Source: Algoriphagus sp.
GTDB taxonomy: Bacteria; Bacteroidota; Bacteroidia; Cytophagales; Cyclobacteriaceae
Length of the DNA: 64,000 nucleotides
Assembly: GCA_018336015.1 (NCBI GenBank)
Contig: JAGXQZ010000052.1
Coordinates: 1 to 64,000, forward strand
Direction of reading: 5' to 3'
Part shown: positions 1,752-18,293 of the stretch, one piece after another
Numbering within the stretch: the stretch's first letter is position 1
Layout of the letters: every line of letters starts with the position of its first letter
Notes under the pieces: model-generated
Seen by the model: the letters and a program-made list of their open reading frames with translations, nothing else
Databases searched by the model: none
What the model was told of the DNA's origin: nothing
Position numbers and translations under genes: made by a program

Positions 1752-4700
1752 TTACTTCGCGTTGAAGGTGATTCCCATCAGAATAAACGTTCCCAGTTCA
1801 GCACCTTTGGCATCACTCACAAAATAAAGTTTATGCTTCTTGCCATCGGTAGCGCCAGTCACAGGGATCATAGCTTGGTGCATTAGGATAGGCATATTTG
1901 GAGCCTTAAATCCTTCACTCGGCTGGTGGGTTCCTTTGGCTACCACTTCACCAGTCGGGCTATCCAAACGAATCTCGAAATCCACCGGCACTTTGATCGG
2001 TTCTTGAGAAGCAGTCATCAAAGTCACCGAACCAATTCCTGTCAAGTCAATGGCAGGCAGAGCAAAGGATCCGGTTTGGTTAGGGACTGTCAGCAAGGTT
2101 CTACCGTCAAATACCATTTTGGTGTAGGTAGTAAAGTCACCTGCCTGCGCCAAGTTCACACTGTTTGGGCCTAATACCAAAGAAGTGGAACCTGTCAAAG
2201 GCTTGATGTTTTCTCCTCCTTTATCAGTGTAGGTAGCGGAAATCACCAAGGATCCGGTAGGAGAAGCTGGCTTGCCCAAGGTTGGGTCAACGCTTCCTTT
2301 TGCTGCCAAGGTTGGCTTGCTTTCTTGTCTGAGCGAAAGGATATAGGTCACCAAGGCATTGACTTCGGAGGCTTTCAAGTCTGGATTGGCAGGCATTGCA
2401 GTCTCACCCCAAACACCTCCTCCGCCTTTTCTGATTTTCTCCACCAGGTAATCACGGTTTCGCTCCCTGTATTTTTTCGCCACTTCGGTATAAGCAGGTC
2501 CGATGGAAGCCTCATTTTCTTTATGACAGGTTTTACAGGTCAATGACTGCACCAAAGATTTCCCGGTCATGGCTTCGCTCATCACCTTGTGGCCCATATC
2601 GGCTTCTGCCTGATCGATTCCCTGTAAGTAATCTGCTGCTACATACAAGCTGCTGATATCGCTCGAAGCTTCCGGATGATCTTCATCGGAAACGGCTACG
2701 GAATAGCTCACTTTTTTGCCCGGGAAGTAGAAAGATTGGTTTCCATCCACTGAAATGCTCACGACTGGAGCAACATTCCCAGAATAAACGGATACCAATG
2801 GACTGGTTCCCGTCAATCCGGAAGGATCCGCTGCAGTCACCTTAATTTCAAATTCACCCACTGTAGAATAGGTATGGGAAAGCGTCGGTTCGTTCGTGGT
2901 TTTGGTTTCACCATTACCCAAGTCCCAGGTGTAAGTGAGGGCGTCTTTCTCCGGATCTGAAGCGGTTGCATTCAAGGTCACAGTCAAAGGATTTTTGCCG
3001 GAAGTTTTGTCTACAGTCAATTCTGAAACTACAGGCGCTCGGTTTCCTCCATTGTAGTCAATTCGGAATAGACCTGCGTCAGGGTTTTTGCTAAACCAGC
3101 CATTTCCATACTCGAGGATATAGATTTTTCCGTCAGGACCCATTTCCATATCCATCAAGGCGTTGAATTTGGTGCCTTTCATGAAGGGTTCCATTTTGTC
3201 AAAATCACCGTTTTCCCGCATGGTCACCACTTTGATCCAGCCTCTGATCCAGTCATAGATGAAAAGTTTTCCGTCGTAGTAATCCGGCATTCTGGTTTCT
3301 GCTGGATACATGTCAGAATAGTAAACCGGTCCAGCCATGGCATTACGTCCGCCTGTTCCCAGCTGAGGGAAGTCAGGAGATACCGCATACGGATACCAGA
3401 TAAAGGCAGGTTCTACCGGTGGCAGTTTCTTCAGACCAGTATTGTTTGGAGAGTTGTTTTCCGGTCCGGCGATATCAAATGCCTGACCGGTCTGCCCGGT
3501 TTCATAGTTGAATTCACGGTACGCGAAGTTGTTTCCGATCGTATATGGCCAGCCGAAATGTCCGGCTTTTCTTGCCTGGTTCACTTCATCGTAACCTCGA
3601 GGACCTTTTACATCAAGCGAATCATTGGCGGCATCAGGTCCCACTTCACCCCAATAGAGGAATCCGTTTTTCTGATCCACAGCGATTCGGTAAGGGTTTC
3701 TCAAGCCTTGGGCATAGATTTCAGGACGTGTTCCTTCGGTACCTTGTGGGTACAAGTTCCCTTCAGGAATGGTATAGCTTCCGTCTTCGGCTACTTTGAT
3801 TCGGAGGATTTTTCCTCTTAGGTCATTGGAGTTGCCGGAGCTTCGACGTGCATCCCACTGCTTGTTGCCATCACGGCTGTCAAGCGGTGCGTAGCCGTTG
3901 AGGGTGTATTTGCTGCCTGGTTGATTGAATGGGGTGGAGTTGTCACCCGTGGAAAGGAATAAGTTTCCGTCTTTGTCAAAGGCAATGGAGCCGCCGGTAT
4001 GGCAGCAGATGTCACGCTGAGAGTAGAGTTCGAGGATGATTTGCTCGGAAGCCATGTCCCAGACTCCATTGGCAAACTTGAATCGGGAAAGTCGGTTGAT
4101 TTCTTTGTCACCGGTAGGTGCGTAGAAGGCATAAACCCAATTGTTGGTCGCGTAATTCGGATCTTTTTGCAAGCCCATCAAGCCTTCTTCAGCATTGACA
4201 CCTTTCACCTCAGTTTTCCAATACACATCCAGTTTTACGATTTCTTTCAGTTCGCCGGTGGCATTGTTGTAGTGAAGGATTTCCCCTCTTCGCTGAGCTA
4301 CCAAAATGTCCAAATTAGGAAGAATGGTCATTTCTGTCGGTTCGGTAAACTGACCGATGGAAAGGGTAGTCTTGGTGAATCTGTTTTCTTCAGGGGCACG
4401 CTTAGACTTGGCTTTGCTGTAGTCCAGTTCTTCGTTTTCACCGATTGCATATTGAATACCTGAAAGCAAATGCTTCAAGAAATCAGCTTCTTCGTAAGAT
4501 TCTTTGGTGTGTCCACCGCCGGTGTAGTACGCTCGTCCGCCGTCAAAGTCATGGTACCAAGCAATCGGATGCTCGCCCATGTCAGCTCCTCCTTGGTAGG
4601 AAGTTTCGTCCAGCATGAGAAGTTTCTTCGTGTTTGGATTGACTTTTTTATAGCTGTACCATTCGTCGGTACGCTCCCAAGATTCAGGCAGAAAGTCTAC

Positions 4701-5195
4701 AGAAGGATGTTTTTCACCTGCTTTGGTGATCTTTCCTGGCTGTACGTTTGGATGAGGATCGTTAATGCCGGGATGGTCAGAGAAATACCCGCCTACCAGT
4801 CGGCCGTACCAGCCCCACTCGTATTCGGTATCTGCCGCAGCGTGGATTCCTACAAAGCCACCGCCTGATTGGATGTAGCGTTCAAAATCCGCCTCTTGGT
4901 AGTGATCCAAGACATCACCGGTGGTGCTCAAGAAGATCACCGCTGCATATTGAGCAAGGTTTTCTTCATTGATCAACTCGGCATTTTTGGTGGTATCTAC
5001 CGCAAAGCCGTTTTCGGCTCCCAATTTTTGGATTGCAGCGATCCCGTTTGGAATGGATTCATGATAGAATCCCGCAGTTTTGCTGAAAATCAGCACTTTC
5101 GGTTGGCCTTCCCGCTTTTTGGAGCAAGAAGCCAAACCTACTCCCAACAGCACAAGCAAAAAGAGCAGGCTACGTAGGTTTTTCGGGTAATTCAT
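1752..5195 (-). CDS. ThuA / PQQ-type sugar dehydrogenase / PKD / cytochrome c lipoprotein
   Basis: 1147 residues. Lipobox LASC places the lipidated Cys at about residue 24. Domain order: ThuA-like glutamine-amidotransferase fold (about 33-250, with the GGGFVGIHAA segment); glucose/sorbosone-dehydrogenase-type six-bladed propeller (about 275-715, with CCHTGGSIAFDKDGNLFLSTGD and the LRNPYRIAVD strand); a PKD domain (about 719-800, ending LSHTYSTVGEFEIKV); a cytochrome c with haem motif CKTCH at about 887-891 and a possible distal Met in AMPANP; and a C-terminal beta-rich carbohydrate-binding-like region. The family is common in Bacteroidota and is thought to oxidise sugars at the envelope and pass electrons to the haem; substrate unknown. 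ThuA itself is linked to disaccharide metabolism elsewhere. galK lies just upstream on the same strand. Confidence 0.88.
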   Translation of the reverse strand: MNYPKNLRSLLFLLVLLGVGLASCSKKREGQPKVLIFSKTAGFYHESIPNGIAAIQKLGAENGFAVDTTKNAELINEENLAQYAAVIFLSTTGDVLDHYQEADFERYIQSGGGFVGIHAAADTEYEWGWYGRLVGGYFSDHPGINDPHPNVQPGKITKAGEKHPSVDFLPESWERTDEWYSYKKVNPNTKKLLMLDETSYQGGADMGEHPIAWYHDFDGGRAYYTGGGHTKESYEEADFLKHLLSGIQYAIGENEELDYSKAKSKRAPEENRFTKTTLSIGQFTEPTEMTILPNLDILVAQRRGEILHYNNATGELKEIVKLDVYWKTEVKGVNAEEGLMGLQKDPNYATNNWVYAFYAPTGDKEINRLSRFKFANGVWDMASEQIILELYSQRDICCHTGGSIAFDKDGNLFLSTGDNSTPFNQPGSKYTLNGYAPLDSRDGNKQWDARRSSGNSNDLRGKILRIKVAEDGSYTIPEGNLYPQGTEGTRPEIYAQGLRNPYRIAVDQKNGFLYWGEVGPDAANDSLDVKGPRGYDEVNQARKAGHFGWPYTIGNNFAYREFNYETGQTGQAFDIAGPENNSPNNTGLKKLPPVEPAFIWYPYAVSPDFPQLGTGGRNAMAGPVYYSDMYPAETRMPDYYDGKLFIYDWIRGWIKVVTMRENGDFDKMEPFMKGTKFNALMDMEMGPDGKIYILEYGNGWFSKNPDAGLFRIDYNGGNRAPVVSELTVDKTSGKNPLTVTLNATASDPEKDALTYTWDLGNGETKTTNEPTLSHTYSTVGEFEIKVTAADPSGLTGTSPLVSVYSGNVAPVVSISVDGNQSFYFPGKKVSYSVAVSDEDHPEASSDISSLYVAADYLQGIDQAEADMGHKVMSEAMTGKSLVQSLTCKTCHKENEASIGPAYTEVAKKYRERNRDYLVEKIRKGGGGVWGETAMPANPDLKASEVNALVTYILSLRQESKPTLAAKGSVDPTLGKPASPTGSLVISATYTDKGGENIKPLTGSTSLVLGPNSVNLAQAGDFTTYTKMVFDGRTLLTVPNQTGSFALPAIDLTGIGSVTLMTASQEPIKVPVDFEIRLDSPTGEVVAKGTHQPSEGFKAPNMPILMHQAMIPVTGATDGKKHKLYFVSDAKGAELGTFILMGITFNAK

Positions 5196-10745: not shown

Positions 10746-12272
10746 TCAATGCTTGAAATGTCTCACGCCGGTCATCACCATGCTCATGCCGTGTGCGTCG
10801 CAGAAGGCAATGCTGTCTTGGTCCTTGATCGATCCGCCGGGCTGAACTACCGCGGTGATTCCTGCTTCATGGGCAATCTCCACACAGTCAGGGAATGGGA
10901 AGAAGGCATCGGAAGCCATCACCGCACCTTTCAAGTCAAAGCCAAATTCTCCGGCTTTGATGATGGCTTGACGAAGGGCATCCACTCGGGAAGTTTGACC
11001 TACACCTGAAGCAAACAGTTGGGAATCGTTGCTCAATACGATGGTATTGGACTTGGTGTGCTTGCAGACTTTCGCTGCGAAGACCAAAGCATCCAGCTCT
11101 TTTTCAGTTGGTGCGACTTGAGTGACCACTTTGAAATCTGCCTTGCTCTCGGTAGCCAAATCCTTGTCCTGCTCGATCACCCCATTGAGCAGGGTTTTGA
11201 TCATCTTGGTGCCGGGCAAATCCATTTTTTGGCGAAGCAGGATGCGGTTTTTCTTTCCTTTCAAGACGGTCAAGGCCTCTTCGGTAAACTCAGGAGCGAT
11301 CAGGACTTCGAAAAACAGGGAATTCATTTCCTCTGCTGCTTCTTGGTCCACGGTCCGGTTGGTGACCAAAACTCCGCCAAAAGCGGAAGTGGTATCGGCG
11401 GCAAACGCCTTCTGATAGGCTTCTTTCACGGTGTCTGCTGTTGCGCAACCGCAGGCATTGGTGTGCTTCAGGATGGCGAAGGCCGTTTGGTCAGGGAATT
11501 CTGCGATCAGATTCACTGCCGCGTCCACGTCCACCAGGTTGTTGTAAGAGAGTTCTTTGCCGTTTAGTTGATCGAAAAGATCTTCCAAGTTGCCGTAGAA
11601 ATGAGCCGCCTGATGCGGGTTTTCTCCATAGCGAAGGGCTTTGGCTTTGCTTTCGGAGACTTTCAGTGCCGGGATGTTTTCGGCACGGTTGAAGTAGTTG
11701 AAGATATGGGTGTCGTAGTTGGAAGACACTTGGAAGGCTTGTGCCGCAAAGTAGCGACGGTCTTCGATCGTGGTGCCTCCGGCTTGCGCTTCCAGCTTGG
11801 CTTCGAGTTCGCCGTACTGATTTTTGGAAGCGATGATGATCACGTCCTTGAAGTTTTTGGCAGCGGCACGGATGAGGGAGATTCCTCCGATGTCGATTTT
11901 TTCGATGATGTCAGCTTCGGATGCACCGGAAGCCACGGTTTCTTCAAACGGATACAAATCCACAATCACCAAGTCGATGGCCGGGATGTCGTATTCCGCA
12001 GCTTGGGACACGTCGCCTTCATTTTCTCTTCGGTAGAGGATACCTCCAAAGATCTTTGGGTGGAGGGTCTTCACTCTGCCTCCGAAAATGGAAGGGTAGG
12101 AGGTCAATTCTTCAACAGGAATTACTTCTGCGCCTTGCTCTTCGATGAATTTTTGGGTGCCTCCGGTGGAGTAGATTTTCACTCCGTGCTTTTTCAGGAG
12201 GGCGATGATCGGTTCGAGATTGTCCTTGTAATAGACTGAGATGAGGGCAGATTGTATTTTTTTGGTGGCCAT
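10746..12272 (-). CDS. purH: Bifunctional AICAR transformylase / IMP cyclohydrolase
   Basis: 508 residues, standard length. The N-terminal MGS-like IMP cyclohydrolase domain (about 1-195, with STGGTQKFIEEQG and GGRVKTLHPKIFGGIL) is followed by the AICAR formyltransferase domain, starting around LRYGENPHQAAHFYG and including NIHS-like segments and KHTNACGCA. It performs the last two steps of de novo IMP synthesis. purN, another formyl-folate purine enzyme, lies 5 kb away on the same strand but is not in the same operon. Confidence 0.97.
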   Translation of the reverse strand: MATKKIQSALISVYYKDNLEPIIALLKKHGVKIYSTGGTQKFIEEQGAEVIPVEELTSYPSIFGGRVKTLHPKIFGGILYRRENEGDVSQAAEYDIPAIDLVIVDLYPFEETVASGASEADIIEKIDIGGISLIRAAAKNFKDVIIIASKNQYGELEAKLEAQAGGTTIEDRRYFAAQAFQVSSNYDTHIFNYFNRAENIPALKVSESKAKALRYGENPHQAAHFYGNLEDLFDQLNGKELSYNNLVDVDAAVNLIAEFPDQTAFAILKHTNACGCATADTVKEAYQKAFAADTTSAFGGVLVTNRTVDQEAAEEMNSLFFEVLIAPEFTEEALTVLKGKKNRILLRQKMDLPGTKMIKTLLNGVIEQDKDLATESKADFKVVTQVAPTEKELDALVFAAKVCKHTKSNTIVLSNDSQLFASGVGQTSRVDALRQAIIKAGEFGFDLKGAVMASDAFFPFPDCVEIAHEAGITAVVQPGGSIKDQDSIAFCDAHGMSMVMTGVRHFKH

Positions 12273-12407
12273 TGGGGAATGGATTGGATTGAACGCTTGG
12301 GAAAGCGCAAAGGTAGAAAAATTGGTTGGAACCGAAGGCTGAAAAATTGAAGAACTTGGACTGGAAAAACCAAATGGAAGGAGGAATCGCTTGGGGTTAG
12401 GTACTTT

Positions 12408-12543
12408 TAGTAACGGCTGCGGATATGAAATGTAGCGGATTGCGGAGATACGTCACTATCCCACGATACAAAACCTGATGCGGGACGAAACTCTCGCAAA
12501 CCCACTGAAACCGCTATATTTTATACCCGTTGTTGGCAGCTGG
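12408..12543 (-). other. attC-like site of cassette X
   Basis: Runs from CCAGCTGCCAAC (12543) to a GTTACTA end at 12414-12408. Arms GGATATGAAATGTAGCGG (12421-12438) and CCGCTATATTTTATACCC (12511-12528) pair with only one mismatch and two G-T wobbles, separated by a 70-base loop region. Length about 133 nt, like the other two sites. The last codons of gene X lie inside it. Confidence 0.6.
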
Positions 12544-13545
12544 CTTTATTTTTTTTATTTCATATATTCCATAAAATATAAATCCAACACCAACAAATAT
12601 ACATATCCAAAATAATATTGGCCCTTCATTTTTATCTCTATATGTATAGTTATTTAGTGATAGATATGTTCTTTTCAAATCACTAAGTCCGAAAACTCTA
12701 ATTCGTTCCCAACCGTAATGCTTGTCTAAGTATCCAAGCGTAGAGGTCTGAAAAAGTTTTTTCTTAGCAACAGATTCTTCAATAGTTAAAAAAATCGAAT
12801 CTCCTTTTAAAGCAAAATTTACATAATCAGAAGCATGCATTTCAGAATAAGCAACACCAGAAATCGAAAATTTAAACTCAGGGTACTCCTTTAATCTAAT
12901 TTGAACATAGCGTGAACCTTTAGAACCTCTTTCTATTTTTGGTTCATTATCAAGTATCCCAGAGATTCTTATAGTTTTCTTATCAATTTTTTCAAGCCTG
13001 TTATTTTGTAACCAATACGCCCCACAAAGTACAAGCAATCCGAATAGAATAAAAAATATTGAATATCTATAAGATACTCTATCTAACCAATTTTTTATTT
13101 CATTTTCATCTTTTCTTTTTCCTTTTGTTAAGTGATGCTTTATTTTTTCATAGTTCTTATATCCAGATGAAGATATCGTATATTTTTTTTCAGAGTAATA
13201 AATAATCAAATCCTTCCACTTAGTATGCTTTGTTTGCTTTTCAATTTCCGTCCATTTAATTATGTCCTTTAAATTGATAGTCTGTTTTTTAAAACCTAAA
13301 CCTGAAAATACAATTAATCTGTCGTTGTATATTTTAAGATTGTCAATAAAGAAAATAGAAATGAGAGCTAAAAGGCTAAATAATCCGAAGATTATACCAC
13401 CGATAAGTTCCCCAATCTGATAATACCTTGGTGATAATGAATTTTTTATCAGAAAATATGCAGCTATTCCTGCACCAATAAATCCCAATATCAGGATGAT
13501 TAGTGTTCCAAATGATTTTTTCGTTGTGATTATTGGTTTATCCAC
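12514..13545 (-). CDS. Cassette X gene: multi-pass membrane protein of unknown function
   Basis: 343 residues, GTG start. Hydrophobic segments lie at about 12-33, 46-68, 160-182 and 308-330. A charged cytoplasmic-type loop (about 70-155, rich in Lys) separates the first and second pairs, and a soluble domain of about 120 residues (190-305) precedes the last helix. No family recognised; the pairing of membrane helices with Lys-rich loops resembles DUF3592-like or PH-like membrane proteins only vaguely. The last ten residues (KPAANNGYKI) are encoded by the recombination site itself, as is common when a cassette gene stops inside its attC. Base composition is much more AT-rich than purH next door. 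Confidence 0.7.
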   Translation of the reverse strand: MDKPIITTKKSFGTLIILILGFIGAGIAAYFLIKNSLSPRYYQIGELIGGIIFGLFSLLALISIFFIDNLKIYNDRLIVFSGLGFKKQTINLKDIIKWTEIEKQTKHTKWKDLIIYYSEKKYTISSSGYKNYEKIKHHLTKGKRKDENEIKNWLDRVSYRYSIFFILFGLLVLCGAYWLQNNRLEKIDKKTIRISGILDNEPKIERGSKGSRYVQIRLKEYPEFKFSISGVAYSEMHASDYVNFALKGDSIFLTIEESVAKKKLFQTSTLGYLDKHYGWERIRVFGLSDLKRTYLSLNNYTYRDKNEGPILFWICIFVGVGFIFYGIYEIKKIKPAANNGYKI

Positions 13546-13568
13546 TATTGTGTGTTTTATAAGCTTTC

Positions 13569-13702
13569 TGCCAACGGTTTCGGGCTTTGCGTTCGGGCGG
13601 CTTTCGATTCACAAATTTTCAATTTATCACAAAAGTTCAACGATGCACAAAGCTCGAAGTTTTAACGTCAGCCCGCCTGACGCAAAATCCATGTTAGCTG
13701 CA
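13569..13702 (-). other. attC-like site of cassette Y
   Basis: Bounded by TGCAGCTAAC (cassette Y end) and GTTGGCAG (start of cassette X). Inner arms on the + strand are TTTGCGTTCGGGCGGCT (13586-13602) and AGCCCGCCTGACGCAAA (13670-13686), an imperfect hairpin with a bulge. About 133 nt. Confidence 0.6.
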
Positions 13703-13715
13703 GCAAATGTTTTCA

Positions 13716-14222
13716 TTACCTATTCATGAAGTTGATTAATTCTGCCCTGAAATCAATTAATTTCTTATCCTTCGGAGAGTGTTTTATCGCGATGTTGATA
13801 TTGTCTAAGGCCAATTGATATTGCCCCATATCAGATAAGATACCTGCTCTCTCTGTAAAACCACCAGAGTATTTTGGATATTGTTGTATCAGTATATCAA
13901 GGTAACACAGAGCTTTTTCAGTCATTCTTTGCCTTCTATAAATATTGACTATCCGAACCCCTATTTCTTGCTTTAACTCTTTCATGAAATTTGGAAAAGC
14001 ATTTTTATCTGCATTGACTAGAGCTTCCTGGAAGTCTTGGATAGCCTCATCATATAACTTTAATTGGGTCTTGCATTGTCCTCTGTAATAAAAGCTGTAA
14101 AAGTCATTAGGTGTAGACTTAATTTGAGAATTGCAAAGTTCAATACATTCATAAAAATTCCGCTCTGCGAGAAGTTTTCTAGCCTTTGTTATTGATTTGA
14201 TTTTCTTAATGACTCTTCTCAT
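13716..14222 (-). CDS. Cassette Y gene: TPR-repeat protein
   Basis: 168 residues with no signal peptide and a basic N-terminus. Three tetratricopeptide-like helical pairs are visible: about 20-50 (FYECIELCNSQIKSTPNDF), 52-75 (YRGQCKTQLKLYDEAIQDFQEAL) and 125-155 (ERAGILSDMGQYQLALDNINIAIKHSP). TPRs mediate protein contacts; no catalytic domain is visible. The ATG lies 17 bases after the cassette core GTTAGCTGCA, as expected for a cassette gene. AT-rich like its neighbours. Partner and role unknown. Confidence 0.78.
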   Translation of the reverse strand: MRRVIKKIKSITKARKLLAERNFYECIELCNSQIKSTPNDFYSFYYRGQCKTQLKLYDEAIQDFQEALVNADKNAFPNFMKELKQEIGVRIVNIYRRQRMTEKALCYLDILIQQYPKYSGGFTERAGILSDMGQYQLALDNINIAIKHSPKDKKLIDFRAELINFMNR

Positions 14223-14233
14223 TGCAAGTTGCA

Positions 14234-14366
14234 GCTAACGGGATTCAGCTTGGAGACGGCGGGCATTCGGAGCCGTTCGCTTCCAGCCTACTCCTAACTT
14301 TTTAAAGATAATAAACTTTCAATTTACTTGGAACCGCCCGCTGTATCCAAGGTGATGTTGGCACAC
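14234..14366 (-). other. attC-like site of cassette Z
   Basis: Bounded by GTGTGCCAAC (end of cassette Z) and GTTAGCTGCA (start of cassette Y). The best inner stem pairs CTTGGATACAGCGGGC with GCCCGCCGTCTCCAAG on the - strand (14 of 16 positions), separated by a 65-base AT-rich loop region. About 133 nt. Confidence 0.62.
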
Positions 14367-14368
14367 GT

Positions 14369-15319
14369 TTATCTTTTCACAAAGTAGTTAAATATCCCTT
14401 TATGATATCTGTAAACATTATCATCTCCTTTAGAGAGGATTACTATTTCTGGAAATTCTTTCTCCCCAAAATCACCTCCAACATTAAACTGAATTCTTAC
14501 GGTATCATTCTCTACAAGTAAACCTTTTGAACATCCAATTATTTTATTGTTCGTAGTATCAGCTAATGACATATCTGAAACTTCACAATCAAAACTGGCA
14601 TCTACTATTTTAAAATTAGGTTGCGATAAAAAGACCTTAACATCAATTAGTTCTCCAATTTCAACCGTGTCAGGTGATACTACTTTCAATAAAACAGGCT
14701 CCATTGCTTCTCCATTTCTATTTGTAGAATTCACATTCAATATTTGATGGCCGTTTTGATATTGAATTTTTTCAAACCTTTTTTCTGCACATGATAAAAA
14801 AATTAGAAAAGTAAAAATCATTAAATTTATTTTTTTCTTGGATGAATTATTATACCCATCTTCTACTTTTAACTGGTGCTTTGATACAATCATTATTGTG
14901 ATAAGAGCCAAAACTAGAACTGCAAAATAAATTGGTTGAGAATAAATGTATTCCCATTGTTCTTTTAAGGACATTTTTTGGCTTTCATTATTAACCATTA
15001 AGATATTTGAATAATTGAGCTTTTTGAAAATGCTAATAATCAAAAAAATTAAGGAAGTTAGTATTGGAAGAATGAGTGCATAACTTCCTATTTTCAATCC
15101 TAATTTTTTTGAAGTTAAGAACCCTAAACCTCCAATTATTACTGTAATCCAAAACAGAAACTCAACAACTATTTCCCAATATGGTCTTGCATATCCAAAA
15201 GTTCCACGATTAAGTCCCCAAGTTAATTCGTAATTCAAAAGATGATATCCTGTTTTAACAGCAAAATATCCTCCAACTAAGAGAAAAATTACTCCGATTA
15301 ACTGGATTACTTTTTTCAT
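14369..15319 (-). CDS. Cassette Z gene: membrane protein with an in-frame lipoprotein-like half
   Basis: 316 residues from the ATG at 15319; an upstream in-frame ATG (15394) would translate the attI-like DNA and is rejected. Residues 1-165 have four hydrophobic segments (about 4-25, 48-68, 74-97 and 128-148). After a short KKK-rich link, residues about 168-185 (LMIFTFLIFLSCAEKR) look exactly like a lipoprotein signal peptide with lipobox, followed by a soluble beta-rich domain to the end. This suggests two originally separate genes fused in frame, or two alternative products. No family recognised. It starts about 40 bases after the cassette core GTTGGCACAC. Confidence 0.7.
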   Translation of the reverse strand: MKKVIQLIGVIFLLVGGYFAVKTGYHLLNYELTWGLNRGTFGYARPYWEIVVEFLFWITVIIGGLGFLTSKKLGLKIGSYALILPILTSLIFLIISIFKKLNYSNILMVNNESQKMSLKEQWEYIYSQPIYFAVLVLALITIMIVSKHQLKVEDGYNNSSKKKINLMIFTFLIFLSCAEKRFEKIQYQNGHQILNVNSTNRNGEAMEPVLLKVVSPDTVEIGELIDVKVFLSQPNFKIVDASFDCEVSDMSLADTTNNKIIGCSKGLLVENDTVRIQFNVGGDFGEKEFPEIVILSKGDDNVYRYHKGIFNYFVKR

Positions 15320-15350
15320 TAGTTTTTGATTGTGGGGTTTCGTTTTGAAA

Positions 15351-15426
15351 TGTGTGCCAACGTTTGTGTTTGCGAAACCAGTTTCGTAAGGCATGCCTAT
15401 TTGGATACATTGCGAAACCAGTTTCG
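15351..15426 (-). other. attI-like site: core plus two direct repeats
   Basis: On the - strand, two exact copies of CGAAACTGGTTTCGCAA (15426-15410 and 15386-15370, 40 bases apart) precede the GTTGGCACAC core at 15361, where cassette Z begins. Each copy is itself an inverted repeat (CGAAAC/GTTTCG). Accessory direct repeats next to a simple core site are the layout of known attI sites. It lies 20 bases past the recombinase stop, so the recombinase is oriented with the array. Confidence 0.55.
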
Positions 15427-15445
15427 GGTATTTCGAAATTATTTT

Positions 15446-16705
15446 TTAGTCATCTAAGTCCAATTGGTCCAAGGGGCTTTTGATCTGATCAAATCCCTTG
15501 GTTGTAACGTGGGTATAAATCTCCGTTGTCTTGCTGCTTTCATGCCCTAAGAGACTCTGGATGTATCTCAGGTCTGTCCCGTTTTCTAGAAGATGTGTTG
15601 CAAATGAATGACGAAGGGTGTGGACGCTTATTTTTTTGCTGATTCCTGCCTTTTTCGCTGAATCCTTTAAAATTACCTGAACACTTCTCGCTGTATAGGC
15701 AATTGGATTTTCCCTTGTGCTTCCTGGTCCCTCAAACAAATAGTAATGAGGGGTATACGCTTTGATGTATGCTCGGAGTAGTTTCAGGGTTTTTGGAGAC
15801 AGCAGGGTATAGCGATCCTTTTTTCCCTTAGACTGTTCAATCCGGATTTGCATGCGATTGGAATCGATATGGGAAATTTTCAAATTAATCAGCTCACTGA
15901 TGCGAAGTCCTGCTGAGTAGATGGTCGTCAAAATGGCCCGGTGCTTAAGGTTGGAAGTGTTTTTCAATATACTAACAACTTCTTCTTCACTGCACACCTC
16001 CGGAAGATTTTTTTCACGCTGGGGGCGATCTATCGGATAAAATTTTCGCTGTCCTCCTTTTACTTTTTCGTAATAAAATTTAATCGCATTGATAGCTTGG
16101 TTTTGATAAGATGAGGATACTTTACGATTGACCACTAGGTAGGTCGAAAAATCCATAATGTCCTTTTCATTGAGCTCATCCACTTCCCGATCCGGAAAGA
16201 AATTGATAAACTCAGTAAAAAGCGCCGAATAGGTTTTCAAGGTTTGGGGACTGTATCGCCGCTCTTGAAGCTTTTGTATGTATTCAGGTGGGCAAGTCTT
16301 GGTAAACCCTTGCGTGTTTAGCTTTACCCGTTTTTCGGAGCTTGATTCGGTTTTTTTCCTGAAGATCAATTCCATGCCCAAGTCGGCGATTTTCTGCCGG
16401 ATCTCCTGTTCATACTTTGGAGAAAAGGGGAGGATCCAGTGTTTTTGAGCGGCATCCCAACGGTAAAAGGGAATTTGCTTGACTGCTTTGATCAGTTCGT
16501 CGTGGTATAGAAAATGAAGTTTTAGGCTTCCTTTTTCTTTTATGATCAAGACTTGGCCTTTTTCGGGAATATAGATTTCCTCTTTAGGAGGTTCAGGCTC
16601 TAAGGTCTCCGTCAGTTCAGAGATTCGATCTCCAAAATGACGCTTGATTTTATCCAGATTACCGGGATAGTTTGGGATTTCCGAATGGTAACTTTCCCAT
16701 TCCAA
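15446..16705 (-). CDS. Tyrosine recombinase, integron-integrase-like
   Basis: 419 residues from a TTG at 16705. The catalytic set is complete: R268 (GLRISEL), K295/K296, H362 and R365 (HTLRHS), H388 (LLGHES) and Y397 (EIYTHV). SAM-like N-terminal core-binding domain about 140-220. The end, IKSPLDQL, resembles the SPLD tail I associate with integron integrases, but the extra helix insertion of IntI between motifs II and III is absent, so it is closer to XerC/D there. Residues 50-112 form a short HARP-like repeat (HDELIKAVKQIPFYRWDAAQKHW). A first copy of that repeat is split: its beginning lies upstream in another frame (16812-16680), so the natural start is probably the ATG at 16812 with a one-base loss near 16680. 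Adjacent to the cassette array. Confidence 0.88.
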   Translation of the reverse strand: MEWESYHSEIPNYPGNLDKIKRHFGDRISELTETLEPEPPKEEIYIPEKGQVLIIKEKGSLKLHFLYHDELIKAVKQIPFYRWDAAQKHWILPFSPKYEQEIRQKIADLGMELIFRKKTESSSEKRVKLNTQGFTKTCPPEYIQKLQERRYSPQTLKTYSALFTEFINFFPDREVDELNEKDIMDFSTYLVVNRKVSSSYQNQAINAIKFYYEKVKGGQRKFYPIDRPQREKNLPEVCSEEEVVSILKNTSNLKHRAILTTIYSAGLRISELINLKISHIDSNRMQIRIEQSKGKKDRYTLLSPKTLKLLRAYIKAYTPHYYLFEGPGSTRENPIAYTARSVQVILKDSAKKAGISKKISVHTLRHSFATHLLENGTDLRYIQSLLGHESSKTTEIYTHVTTKGFDQIKSPLDQLDLDD

Positions 16706-16812
16706 CGGCTGTATCTGAGGCTGCGGACAAAATCAAGGTCAGCCTCATTTTTGGGCATTTTGAGAAAAATTTTCTTCTCGGTCACCAAAAGAGTGATGGG
16801 AAAAGGATTCAT
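16680..16812 (-). pseudogene. Frame-shifted N-terminal part of the recombinase
   Basis: From an ATG at 16812 the frame gives a HARP-like half-repeat: a beta-strand-like stretch, then ADLDFVRSLRYSRWNGK. This aligns with the in-frame second copy ELIKAVKQIPFYRWD of the recombinase. The expected continuation (EIPNYPGNLDKIKRHFGDRI) is in the recombinase frame, so a one-base deletion or an assembly error near 16675-16705 is likely. Confidence 0.6.
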
Positions 16813-17024
16813 AAAAGTATGTGCTTAAAAACGTTAGATAAGATAGGTTTTTCCTGCAAGGAGGCAAAAAGACCAGGTGGTTTTGTGCTAGTTCTCCCTT
16901 TTGGAGTATGCCATTCCGCAACCATGCTTTTCTTTCCCCGAGGATTTGATCAAGAGATTTAAAAACCTCTAAAAAGCTTCAGGATTGCAAATCGTAAAGA
17001 AAAAGTAATCTGATTTTCTAGCAC

Positions 17025-17588
17025 CTAAATAATTGAGGGAGTAACTTGGGTTTTCTGTCTCACAAATCGATTCTGGACAATCTTGTCCAGAAACAACTTG
17101 GTCTCCTTGCATTCAAAAATCAAGGGATTTTGGAAGGGACCGAATAACGGAATGCCCGAACCCAGGAGGACAGGAATCACCGTAATGATCATCTCATCGA
17201 TCAAATCCTCCTTCAAGAATCTTTGGATGGTTTTGCCTCCGTCGATGTACAGCTTAGAGTATCCTTTTCCATGGATAGTTTCCAGGATTTCAGCCAAATT
17301 TCCACTCACCAATTCCGCTTTTCCTTTGGCTTTTTCCGGCAATTCGGTCAGCGTATGGCTCAGCACAAAAACCGGCTTTTGGTAAGGCCAGTCCATGTCA
17401 AATCCGCAAACTGTTTCAAAGGTAGTTCTACCCATGACCAGCGCATCGACCTCTGCCATAAAAGCCCCATAGCCTGAGTCGATCTGATTGATCTCCGGAA
17501 AAGTGTCTAAAAAGTCAAGCTTTCCAGTTGAATCTGCGATGAATCCATCGAGGCTGGTGGCGATAAATACGCGGTTGCTGGTGTTCAT
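17025..17588 (-). CDS. Dihydrofolate reductase-like (RibD C-terminal) protein
   Basis: 187 residues. Begins RVFIATSLDGFIAD, the usual start of the small YwjB/YyaP-type DHFR-fold proteins, followed by DALVMGRTTFETV (nucleotide-binding loop), KLYIDGGKTIQRFL and IPVLLGSGIPLF. These proteins share the RibD C-terminal reductase fold and bind NADPH, but are not the essential folate enzyme; the substrate is unknown. Monocistronic by spacing. Confidence 0.88.
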   Translation of the reverse strand: MNTSNRVFIATSLDGFIADSTGKLDFLDTFPEINQIDSGYGAFMAEVDALVMGRTTFETVCGFDMDWPYQKPVFVLSHTLTELPEKAKGKAELVSGNLAEILETIHGKGYSKLYIDGGKTIQRFLKEDLIDEMIITVIPVLLGSGIPLFGPFQNPLIFECKETKLFLDKIVQNRFVRQKTQVTPSII

Positions 17589-17611
17589 ATCTTTTGCAGA
17601 GGTTCTTGTTC

Positions 17612-17695
17612 TGTTGCAGGGTTCAGAATTAAGTCGTAGTGTTCAGTGTTCAGTGTTCAGGGTTGAACTTCCCGAAATCCGAAATCCGAAATCCC
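17612..17695. repeat. Heptad-word repeat island (TGTTCAG and AAATCCG words in one phase)
   Basis: Twelve consecutive 7-base units in a single phase, including TGTTCAG three times (17640, 17647, 17654), then GGTTGAA, CTTCCCG, AAATCCG twice and AAATCCC. The word changes midway but the 7-base phase is kept. Confidence 0.7.
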
Positions 17696-17702
17696 ACTAG
17701 GT

Positions 17703-18293
17703 TCATCCTACATCTGTCACCGAGCTTGTCGAGGTGCCCACCAAACTCTCAATCACCTCTGGAAAATACCGGTGCTCGAGCGCATGCACCTTGGCAGCTA
17801 TCGTATCAGGGGTGTCTTCCGGGGTCACGGGAGTAGCCGCCTGAAAGATGATTTTTCCCTCATCGTAATGTTCGTTGACCAGGTGGATGGTAATACCTGT
17901 CTCAGTATCTCCTGCTGCTTTGACTGCCTCGTGGACATGGTGTCCGTACATGCCCTTTCCTCCATAGTTCGGGAGCAGTGCCGGATGGATATTCACCATG
18001 CGATTGGGGAAAGCACGAATGAGCGCCTCCGGGATCTTTAGTAAAAAGCCCGCCAAAATCACCCAATCGATCTGTTCTTCCTGAAGCTTGGCCAAAAGCA
18101 CTCCTGCATCCATTTCTTTTCGGGAAAAAGTGAAGGTCGGCACTCCAAACTTCTTCGCCCGCTCCAGCACAAAGGCATCAGCCTTGTTGGAGGCAATCAG
18201 CGCGATTTCTGCTTTGGTGGAACCCTGAAAATGGGCCATGATTTTTTCTGCATTGGAGCCGCTACCGGAGGCGAGAATGGCGAGTTTGATCAT
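17703..18293 (-). CDS. purN: Phosphoribosylglycinamide formyltransferase
   Basis: 196 residues. GSGSNAEKIM binds the ribose phosphate; NIHPALLP holds the catalytic Asn and His; GKGMYGHHVHEAVKAAGDTETGITIHLVNEHYDEG holds the loop and the catalytic Asp. It transfers a formyl group from 10-formyl-THF in the third step of purine synthesis. The last residues (TSTSSVTDVG) are encoded by a GCACCTCGACAAGCTCGGTG repeat element lying across the 3' end, so the C-terminal tail is probably an acquired extension. Confidence 0.95.
   Translation of the reverse strand: MIKLAILASGSGSNAEKIMAHFQGSTKAEIALIASNKADAFVLERAKKFGVPTFTFSRKEMDAGVLLAKLQEEQIDWVILAGFLLKIPEALIRAFPNRMVNIHPALLPNYGGKGMYGHHVHEAVKAAGDTETGITIHLVNEHYDEGKIIFQAATPVTPEDTPDTIAAKVHALEHRYFPEVIESLVGTSTSSVTDVG
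17714..17738. repeat. Dispersed repeat CACCGAGCTTGTCGAGGTG overlapping the purN 3' end
   Basis: This 19-mer matches, from memory, a repeat very common between genes of Bacteroidota. Here it supplies the last codons of purN. Confidence 0.5.

Follow-up and report, generated by a model that had tools for sequence, protein, structure and literature searches.

The 64,000-nucleotide stretch analysed here (the window; positions 1 to 64,000 of contig JAGXQZ010000052.1, Algoriphagus sp., assembly GCA_018336015.1) carries on its minus strand a tyrosine recombinase gene followed by three genes with short matching ends. The questions raised by this locus are whether the three genes are the mobile cassettes of an integron and, if so, what their recombinase has in place of the insertion specific to integron integrases (IntI). 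The element is very probably a chromosomal integron, of a lineage that is common in the window's class (Bacteroidia) and is headed by a recombinase with N-terminal HARP domains. The name HARP integron is proposed for this variant, the novelty of which lies in the enzyme.

Three gene cassettes behind a recombinase gene

Along the minus strand, the recombinase gene (15446..16705, a 419-aa open reading frame (ORF) from TTG; hereafter the integrase) is followed by 84 nt and then by cassettes X, Y and Z. The 84 nt, from the integrase stop to the first GTT, correspond to a putative attI (15360..15445, minus strand) with its predicted crossover (G|TT) at 15361/15360. Together with its attC, cassette X spans 14238..15360 (as a TT...G unit), cassette Y 13574..14237 and cassette Z 12414..13573, all on the minus strand. 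In X, which adjoins the integrase, 10 nt are shared by the two ends (GTTGGCACAC, minus strand), as are 10 nt in Y (GTTAGCTGCA, minus strand) and 8 nt in Z, the last cassette (GTTGGCAG, minus strand). These lengths had been given correctly by the first-pass annotation (in which the labels X and Z were exchanged), as had the core positions (GTTRGC at 12532, 13693 and 14357; GCYAAC at 13570, 14234 and 15356).

The ORF of X (14369-15319, minus strand; 316 aa from ATG, membrane-like by eye), for which no Pfam or NCBIfam match was found at E ≤ 1, starts 42 nt past the GTT start of its cassette and stops 12 nt before the AAC end. That of Y (13716-14222, minus strand; 168 aa) encodes a TPR protein (TPR_9, E 1e-10), starting 17 nt past the GTT start and stopping 23 nt before the AAC end, and that of Z (12514-13545, minus strand; membrane-like by eye) has a GTG start 30 nt in and extends into its own attC, where it stops. 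At 29-35% GC, versus 44.6% for the window, the cassettes are indeed AT-rich, as had been remarked.

The attC sites lie on the minus strand at 14230..14366 (X), 13566..13702 (Y) and 12405..12541 (Z, the last site of the array). A covariance model of attC (R1, trained on the 23 sites of an alignment, A6, two of them from the window) matches them at E 6.3e-21, 1.1e-14 and 8.9e-18, respectively; the sites of X and Z were in the training set and that of Y was absent from it. No further match at E ≤ 1 was found in the 64 kb. All three spacers fold, in line with the hairpins ascribed to them earlier. Their length had been put at about 133 nt; measured from AAC to GTT it is 117 nt in each (the third being 12415-12531), and the earlier figure is close only to the 137 nt that include the arms.

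Within 12380-15446 there are exactly three GTTR/YAAC-ended pairs of at least 8 nt, and all three chain. A three-cassette chain arose in 0 of 2,000 dinucleotide-based shuffles of this region and a two-cassette chain in 30 of 2,000; together with the stem-site counts given below, this rules out a chance origin of the chain. Plain inverted repeats around single genes were likewise rejected, as the flanks agree across the gene and not across the spacer, and the sole trace of a known RNA or riboswitch was a sub-threshold 2dG-I match on the attC of X. The layout thus reads as that of gene cassettes.

Emphasis had been laid on the unusual core. According to the part of PMC2727003 available to us, however, conservation in attC is usually limited to AAC/GTT and pairing usually reaches 9-11 nt, so the core is not notable; the notable part is the integrase, which has no IntI insertion and carries HARP domains instead.

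An integrase with HARP domains and no IntI insertion

The window's integrase scored 233 bits against NF040815 (XerA), over the cut-off of 220, and 214 bits against TIGR02249 (integron integrase), under the cut-off of 265; the latter match consists of two stretches that are split where the IntI insertion would sit. In alignment with real IntI rows, about 40 residues (the IntI-specific additional domain, I2/patch III) are missing. The distance from the first catalytic R to the H of HxxR, measured on best-guess ORFs, is 89-94 in 27 HARP rows, as against 130-132 in 12 rows of canonical IntI and 112 in one further such row. The catalytic R, K, H, R, H and Y columns are invariant in 16 members of the group.

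One to three HARP repeats precede the catalytic part in the HARP integrases. In the window, repeat 2 occupies residues 57-113 of the 419-aa ORF (16367..16537, minus strand), as located by our own profile, which was partly built from this protein. When a profile of 18 N-terminal repeats (A5) was searched against 177,635 PDB sequences, the sole significant entry was 4o66 (SMARCAL1 HARP; E 8e-7), followed at E 0.078 by the next match. Pfam HARP (PF07443) was reached with E values of 0.1 or lower by 13 of the 16 members (2.2e-5 at best), with bit scores of 15.9 and 18.1 for two members, under the gathering cut-off of 25. The match of the window's protein alone (E 0.009) is too weak, and it was the A5 search that decided. 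In a profile scan at E < 1e-3, a HARP repeat was detected in 27 of 73 proteins (from 80 named loci), all 27 of them short-spaced, and in none of the 13 IntI-type rows; the 16 proteins from which the profile was built match by construction, as does L060.

The AlphaFold model of an Aquiflexum homologue (predicted local distance difference test score (pLDDT) 87) had 2a3v, the integrase VchIntI4, as its first Foldseek match, and its catalytic part aligned to 2a3v in VIA-align with Z 20.4 and a root-mean-square deviation of 3.5 over 256 aligned residues. Ahead of that part, the model has two small alpha/beta units, at about residues 6-70 and 88-155. An intact integrase of 456 aa is encoded by Aquiflexum sp. 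TKW24L (L060:9884-11251). The fold of the window's protein alone reached a pLDDT of 50.

In the tree, the 17 rows of canonical IntI grouped as a single clade (support 100). Whether HARP integrons arose independently was weighed and is not demonstrated: because one clade of HARP enzymes and IntI stays acceptable in the approximately unbiased test (P value=0.351), a loss of I2 would be compatible too. A first tree held the badly cut rows L209, L054 and L003, and a second omitted these plus L004, L122 and L069; L051, L078, L097, L111, L113, L114, L118, L125, L128 and L130 are omitted from both.

Relative to known systems, the element shares with classical integrons an attI beside the integrase, a G|TT crossover, complementary cassette ends of 8-10 nt, hairpin-forming attC, single-ORF cassettes and exchangeable arrays. 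It differs from them in the enzyme, with its missing IntI-specific insertion, its TIGR02249 score and the one to three HARP repeats of its group, as well as in its attC stems (below). With XerA and archaeal Xer (NF040815, 5hxy and 4a8e) the enzyme shares the catalytic core and a close fold; XerA acts at a dif site, whereas the HARP-type gene heads cassette arrays. From SMARCAL1 (PF07443, 4o66), whose repeat is matched by the N-terminal profile, it differs in that HARP is joined here to a tyrosine recombinase and there to a helicase.

The attC sites and the company they keep

By a definition that combined YAAC...GTTR, the spacing and an inner stem, and made no use of cassette ends, 94 sites were collected from 26 loci. 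Beyond the core, neighbouring sites agree across the gene in five to six of six bases in 50 of 64 cases, whereas the same agreement across one attC is seen in 4 of 94 (random pairs, about 3%); the terminal matches claimed earlier are thus better than chance over many genomes. Among the 14 neighbour pairs with low agreement are some, the window's included, between which a site was missed. The unbiased test of arm pairing is that on 70 sites from 15 loci, because these were picked by cassette ends alone: pairing came to 10.1 for a site's own arms and 4.9 for arms from different loci. Compensatory changes were found in 12 of 13 predicted pairs among the 23 aligned sites and in 10 of 10 among all 39 candidate sites, for which the consensus energy is just −0.3.

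First-order Markov or plain shuffles served as controls. Downstream of 46 HARP integrases, 87 stem-defined sites were found in 270 kb, versus one in 298 kb upstream and two in shuffles. Among the 29 HARP loci with at least 3 kb downstream, sites number one or more in 25 and two or more in 18. Around 32 HARP-less short recombinases there was a single stem-defined site in 198 kb, at L075, itself a weak HARP case (E 0.0025), and 19 of 20 such loci with at least 3 kb downstream had none; 14 long-spaced rows had one site downstream and three upstream. These groups omit seven rows without an R-to-H value, L060 (the same as L040) and L051 (a HARP-less fragment), and the shortened L078 and the weak-HARP L075 were counted as HARP-less.

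Among 20 high-ranked relatives the longest chains of end-matched cassettes were of 19, 15, 10, 10 and 8 cassettes, and the longest in five shuffles per locus was 3; the other 15 had chains of 0-4, by this one measure mostly like shuffles, some of their contigs ending and introns breaking the chain in G085. Neither these relatives nor the class-level picks (high-ranked, and not visibly at a contig end) are a random sample.

Several training sites of R1 lie in loci where the model was later run; its independent test comprised 16 of the 20 class-level loci (the other four having <1 kb downstream) plus five further loci. At the 16 class-level loci, all outside training, 39 matches were found in 13, each of them downstream and on the strand of the integrase. 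The 183 kb around 18 canonical IntI genes gave no match under E 0.05. As far as these alignments and counts reach, then, arms pair within one site and not between sites, and the arrays go with HARP recombinases.

Could an ordinary IntI, acting in trans or recently lost, have made the arrays, with the HARP recombinase as a bystander? The sites are somewhat more widespread than the enzyme, R1 matching at E ≤ 0.01 in 95 of 108 genomes of the family, compared with integrase matches at E ≤ 1e-60 in 125 of 196 genomes of the GTDB family, and some sites lie on other contigs than the integrase; for example, the seven R1 matches of the window's own genome are divided among the window (three), C49 (two), C70 (one) and C107 (one). 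But canonical IntI over the cut-off occurs in only 2 of 196 family genomes and 1 of 295 class genomes (105 of 395 in the phylum; among the matches listed, from 107 phylum genomes, one is of the window's class), and none was found in the own draft genome. Moreover, the first cassette of 16 loci out of 21 (counting the window) starts 46-122 nt past the HARP gene, L035 and L036 share attI and nearly the same enzyme and not the first cassette, and loci of canonical IntI are without these sites. A bystander role is therefore highly improbable.

In the mechanism favoured here, an Xer/XerA-type tyrosine recombinase with N-terminal HARP, whose gene precedes attI and reads in the direction of the array, would insert circular cassettes at the G|TT of attI and excise or shuffle them between attC sites. 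Once the cassette is circular, its two ends would pair as the R box of the attC hairpin, of which the inner stem of about 15-20 bp would be the L part. By analogy with classical integrons, attC would act as a folded single strand, and recognition of the folded site, by the I2 helix in IntI, would fall to the HARP domains. SMARCAL1 HARP domains bind strand junctions. Catalysis of the exchange by the HARP recombinase, the use of attC as a folded single strand and its recognition by HARP are what we infer.

The sites themselves bear on whether folding is involved. At least one bulge in the R''-L'' arm of the inner stem was seen in 33 of 82 HARP-type sites (other arm, 35 of 82), as opposed to 8 of 9 canonical sites (P value=0.0097, from a small canonical sample and with sites of one array being non-independent). 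This lack of a consistent bulge is a coherent hint, being expected without an I2 helix to dock it. It would equally suit a recombinase that works on double-stranded attC and attI as Xer does on dif, the hairpin potential being a by-product of paired binding sites, and so would an enzyme that is Xer-like, without I2 and near archaeal Xer by fold. Yet pairing is far stronger between arms of the same site than between arms of different sites, over unlike sequences, and this argues for pairing within a single strand, since the letters of a fixed double-stranded site would be conserved; in addition, the unpaired stretch beside the core differs in length between the two sides (median, 3 nt left and 5 nt right), as in folded attC. 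We accordingly regard double-stranded recognition as unlikely and retain the folded site.

A HARP-headed integron with folded attC has several observations to its disadvantage. The archaeal Xer structures 4a8e (Z 23.1) and 5hxy (Z 22.1) aligned to the Aquiflexum model slightly better than did IntI. HARP is tied to 4o66 by sequence similarity (the structure comparison covering residues 174-446), and no HARP was detectable in three gut relatives (L076, L083 and L087). The covariation count is partly built in, because the sites were first chosen for a stem; A6 holds 23 of 39 candidates, 16 mostly divergent ones having been left out by choice, and a MAFFT alignment of 24 attC chosen without the stem criterion gave no consensus structure. 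Four of the 29 HARP loci with at least 3 kb downstream had no stem-defined site, end-matched chains exceeded shuffles in only 8 of 16 further class-level loci, L253, L256 and L259 had no R1 match at class level, and one R1 match (L088) was found in 484 kb of 32 other HARP-less loci.

A second size class of spacer, about 49-56 nt, was observed at L044, L045, L075 and L281 and is weakly caught by R1; a short attC type may thus exist in some family members and in Rufibacter.

Exchange of cassettes, spread and meaning

The array lies between purH (10746..12272, minus strand; AICARFT/IMPCHase) on its left and, on its right, a RibD/DHFR-like gene (17025-17588, minus strand; RibD_C, E 1.5e-14) and a presumably purN-like gene (17703-18293, minus strand), the latter two being collinear in G226, a genome of the same genus. 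At 11 of 29 purH loci of relatives (4.5 kb fetched) the flanks are only 61-942 bp apart, and therefore hold no integron. In G226 an integron sits at the same chromosomal place. Homology at the DNA level (82.5% over 2929 columns) runs from 18284 in the right flank through the integrase, ends at 15359, the attI crossover, and is taken up again at purH; in the interval the cassette genes differ from the window's, with only two short stretches of the attC of Y (49 and 52 nt) resembling a G226 attC. A fixed operon is thereby ruled out. Of the two objections to the integron interpretation of the first-pass annotation, a gene set fixed among relatives and end matches no better than chance, both were examined and neither holds. 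At the same purH junction in G230 there is another attC (within L170:6149-7173), and the 19 kb retrieved gave no match to the integrase at E ≤ 1e-20; that segment also contains an SRPBCC-like gene beside the attC and a second gene that we take to resemble an Arr-type ADP-ribosyltransferase.

The point of insertion is also marked elsewhere, since attI is conserved where first cassettes vary: it is near-identical in L035 and L036, and again in L037, L038 and L039, and the first cassettes differ in each set. Within the window's attI, two copies of a perfect palindrome read from the sequence (CGAAACCAGTTTCG; 15373-15386 and 15413-15426) are possible integrase sites.

Transfer of a whole cassette is indicated by a copy of X in G085, of another genus, at 92.7% identity over 1125 columns. 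The homologous part is 14238-15360 of the window, precisely the TT...G unit predicted by G|TT excision. Duplicated cassettes were found inside arrays. DNA comparison thus points to a cassette unit with its boundaries, to exchange at one locus and to the transfer of one cassette between genera. In the G085 array, group II introns (RF00029 and RF01999) occupy cassette junctions, among them the two that flank the X copy (L041:9136-10935 and 15966-17765; L175:1690-1765, 2958-3074 and 4682-4757), and may target the crossovers of attI and attC.

One more point to set against an active system concerns the window's enzyme itself. Compared with G226 and G082, its frame is shifted near the 5′ end, within HARP repeat 1: the ATG at 16812 and the 419-aa ORF are out of frame with each other, and the 5′ part of the gene with the start of repeat 1 (16698..16812, minus strand) was recognised from the frames, the G226 homologue and DNA comparison. 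This copy may be impaired, barring a sequencing error or a functional shorter form. The element could then be dead, the relic of a formerly active integron whose integrase gene has become a pseudogene, as would suit a second related recombinase of this genome (L002:1501-2427, on C27; 48% identical), which has an in-frame TGA stop and no attC match in its 3.9 kb. On the other hand, the remainder of the reading frame is open, with 90% identity to the intact 455-aa integrase of G226 (L173:3726-5093), attC and attI are well formed, and a base error is possible in a draft genome with 5% contamination. Decay of this one copy is quite conceivable, if not what we would expect.

How the system relates to what has been described turns on the additional domain. 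PMC7790495, in the part available to us, presents the I2 helix as a requirement of cassette capture that occurs in no other protein and whose gain gave rise to integrons. As excerpted, PMC2426708 and PMC9668308 describe surveys that pick integrases by the IntI additional domain, and it can be deduced from the latter that a tool requiring this domain would call HARP arrays clusters of attC sites lacking integron-integrases (CALIN), or nothing; here, in contrast to CALIN, the integrase is present and adjacent, merely unrecognised. In its predicted working the element functions like an integron, and it is outside the classical formal definition, which includes the IntI domain. The requirement of that domain reportedly goes back to Messier and Roy in 2001.

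Integrons have been recorded in the phylum before. In the accessible portions of these sources, the Bacteroidetes/Chlorobi group is among the finds of PMC2426708, Salinibacter ruber carries a complete Bacteroidetes integron, preceded only by In0 elements (PMC9024848, IntegronFinder 2.0), Bacteroidota are among the integron phyla (PMC8618304, a review), and eleven taxon-specific attC models include none for Bacteroidota (PMC8352920). In the literature covered, preprints and most subscription journals lying outside it, no description was found of HARP with an integron integrase or tyrosine recombinase, nor of such an integron-like system in Bacteroidetes. The accessible part of PMC13148043 (2026) reports homology-independent uptake by Riemerella of a resistance gene with an attC-like tail, the recombinase being unnamed; that this uptake is linked to HARP integrons is a guess.

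An integron lineage without I2 makes the claim of I2 necessity directly testable, and the HARP integron provides a second natural solution for the recombination of folded DNA. Because surveys select integrases by the IntI domain, a large cassette pool may have been overlooked, as the prevalence of the attC model in the family and a plasmid array in Chryseobacterium suggest. We lean, by a little, towards a broader view: that cassette capture has been solved a second time in this class, by an Xer-like recombinase that gained HARP and uses it, instead of the I2 helix and extrahelical bases, to recognise folded attC, and that up to half of the class's species, and plasmids as well, hold a reservoir of mobile cassettes that has largely gone uncounted because surveys demand the IntI domain. 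Profile A2 matched in 145 of 295 class genomes at E ≤ 1e-80, HARP not being counted separately. If repeated attI and attC break assemblies, arrays may be undercounted in drafts; the 3′ ends of integrase genes lie about 100 bp from the contig end in, for example, G648:C132, G650:C24 and G707:C19.

A comparison of the G082 integron with the window's neighbours revealed only the recombinase genes and one weak match as shared, and a phage collection gave one weak match. Related integrases also occur on Bacteroidota plasmids. On that of Chryseobacterium sp. SNU WT5 (L278:14968-29921), a HARP integrase is followed by seven R1 matches. Among the other plasmid integrases (L279-L281), that of Persicobacter has HARP and two R1 matches, that of Rufibacter tibetensis weak HARP and two short R1 matches, and that of Pontibacter kalidii no HARP or R1 match, with small same-strand genes near tra genes. 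HARP-type integrases were further seen in records labelled as archaeal, Firmicutes and Spirochaetota metagenome-assembled genomes (L080, L085 and L090).

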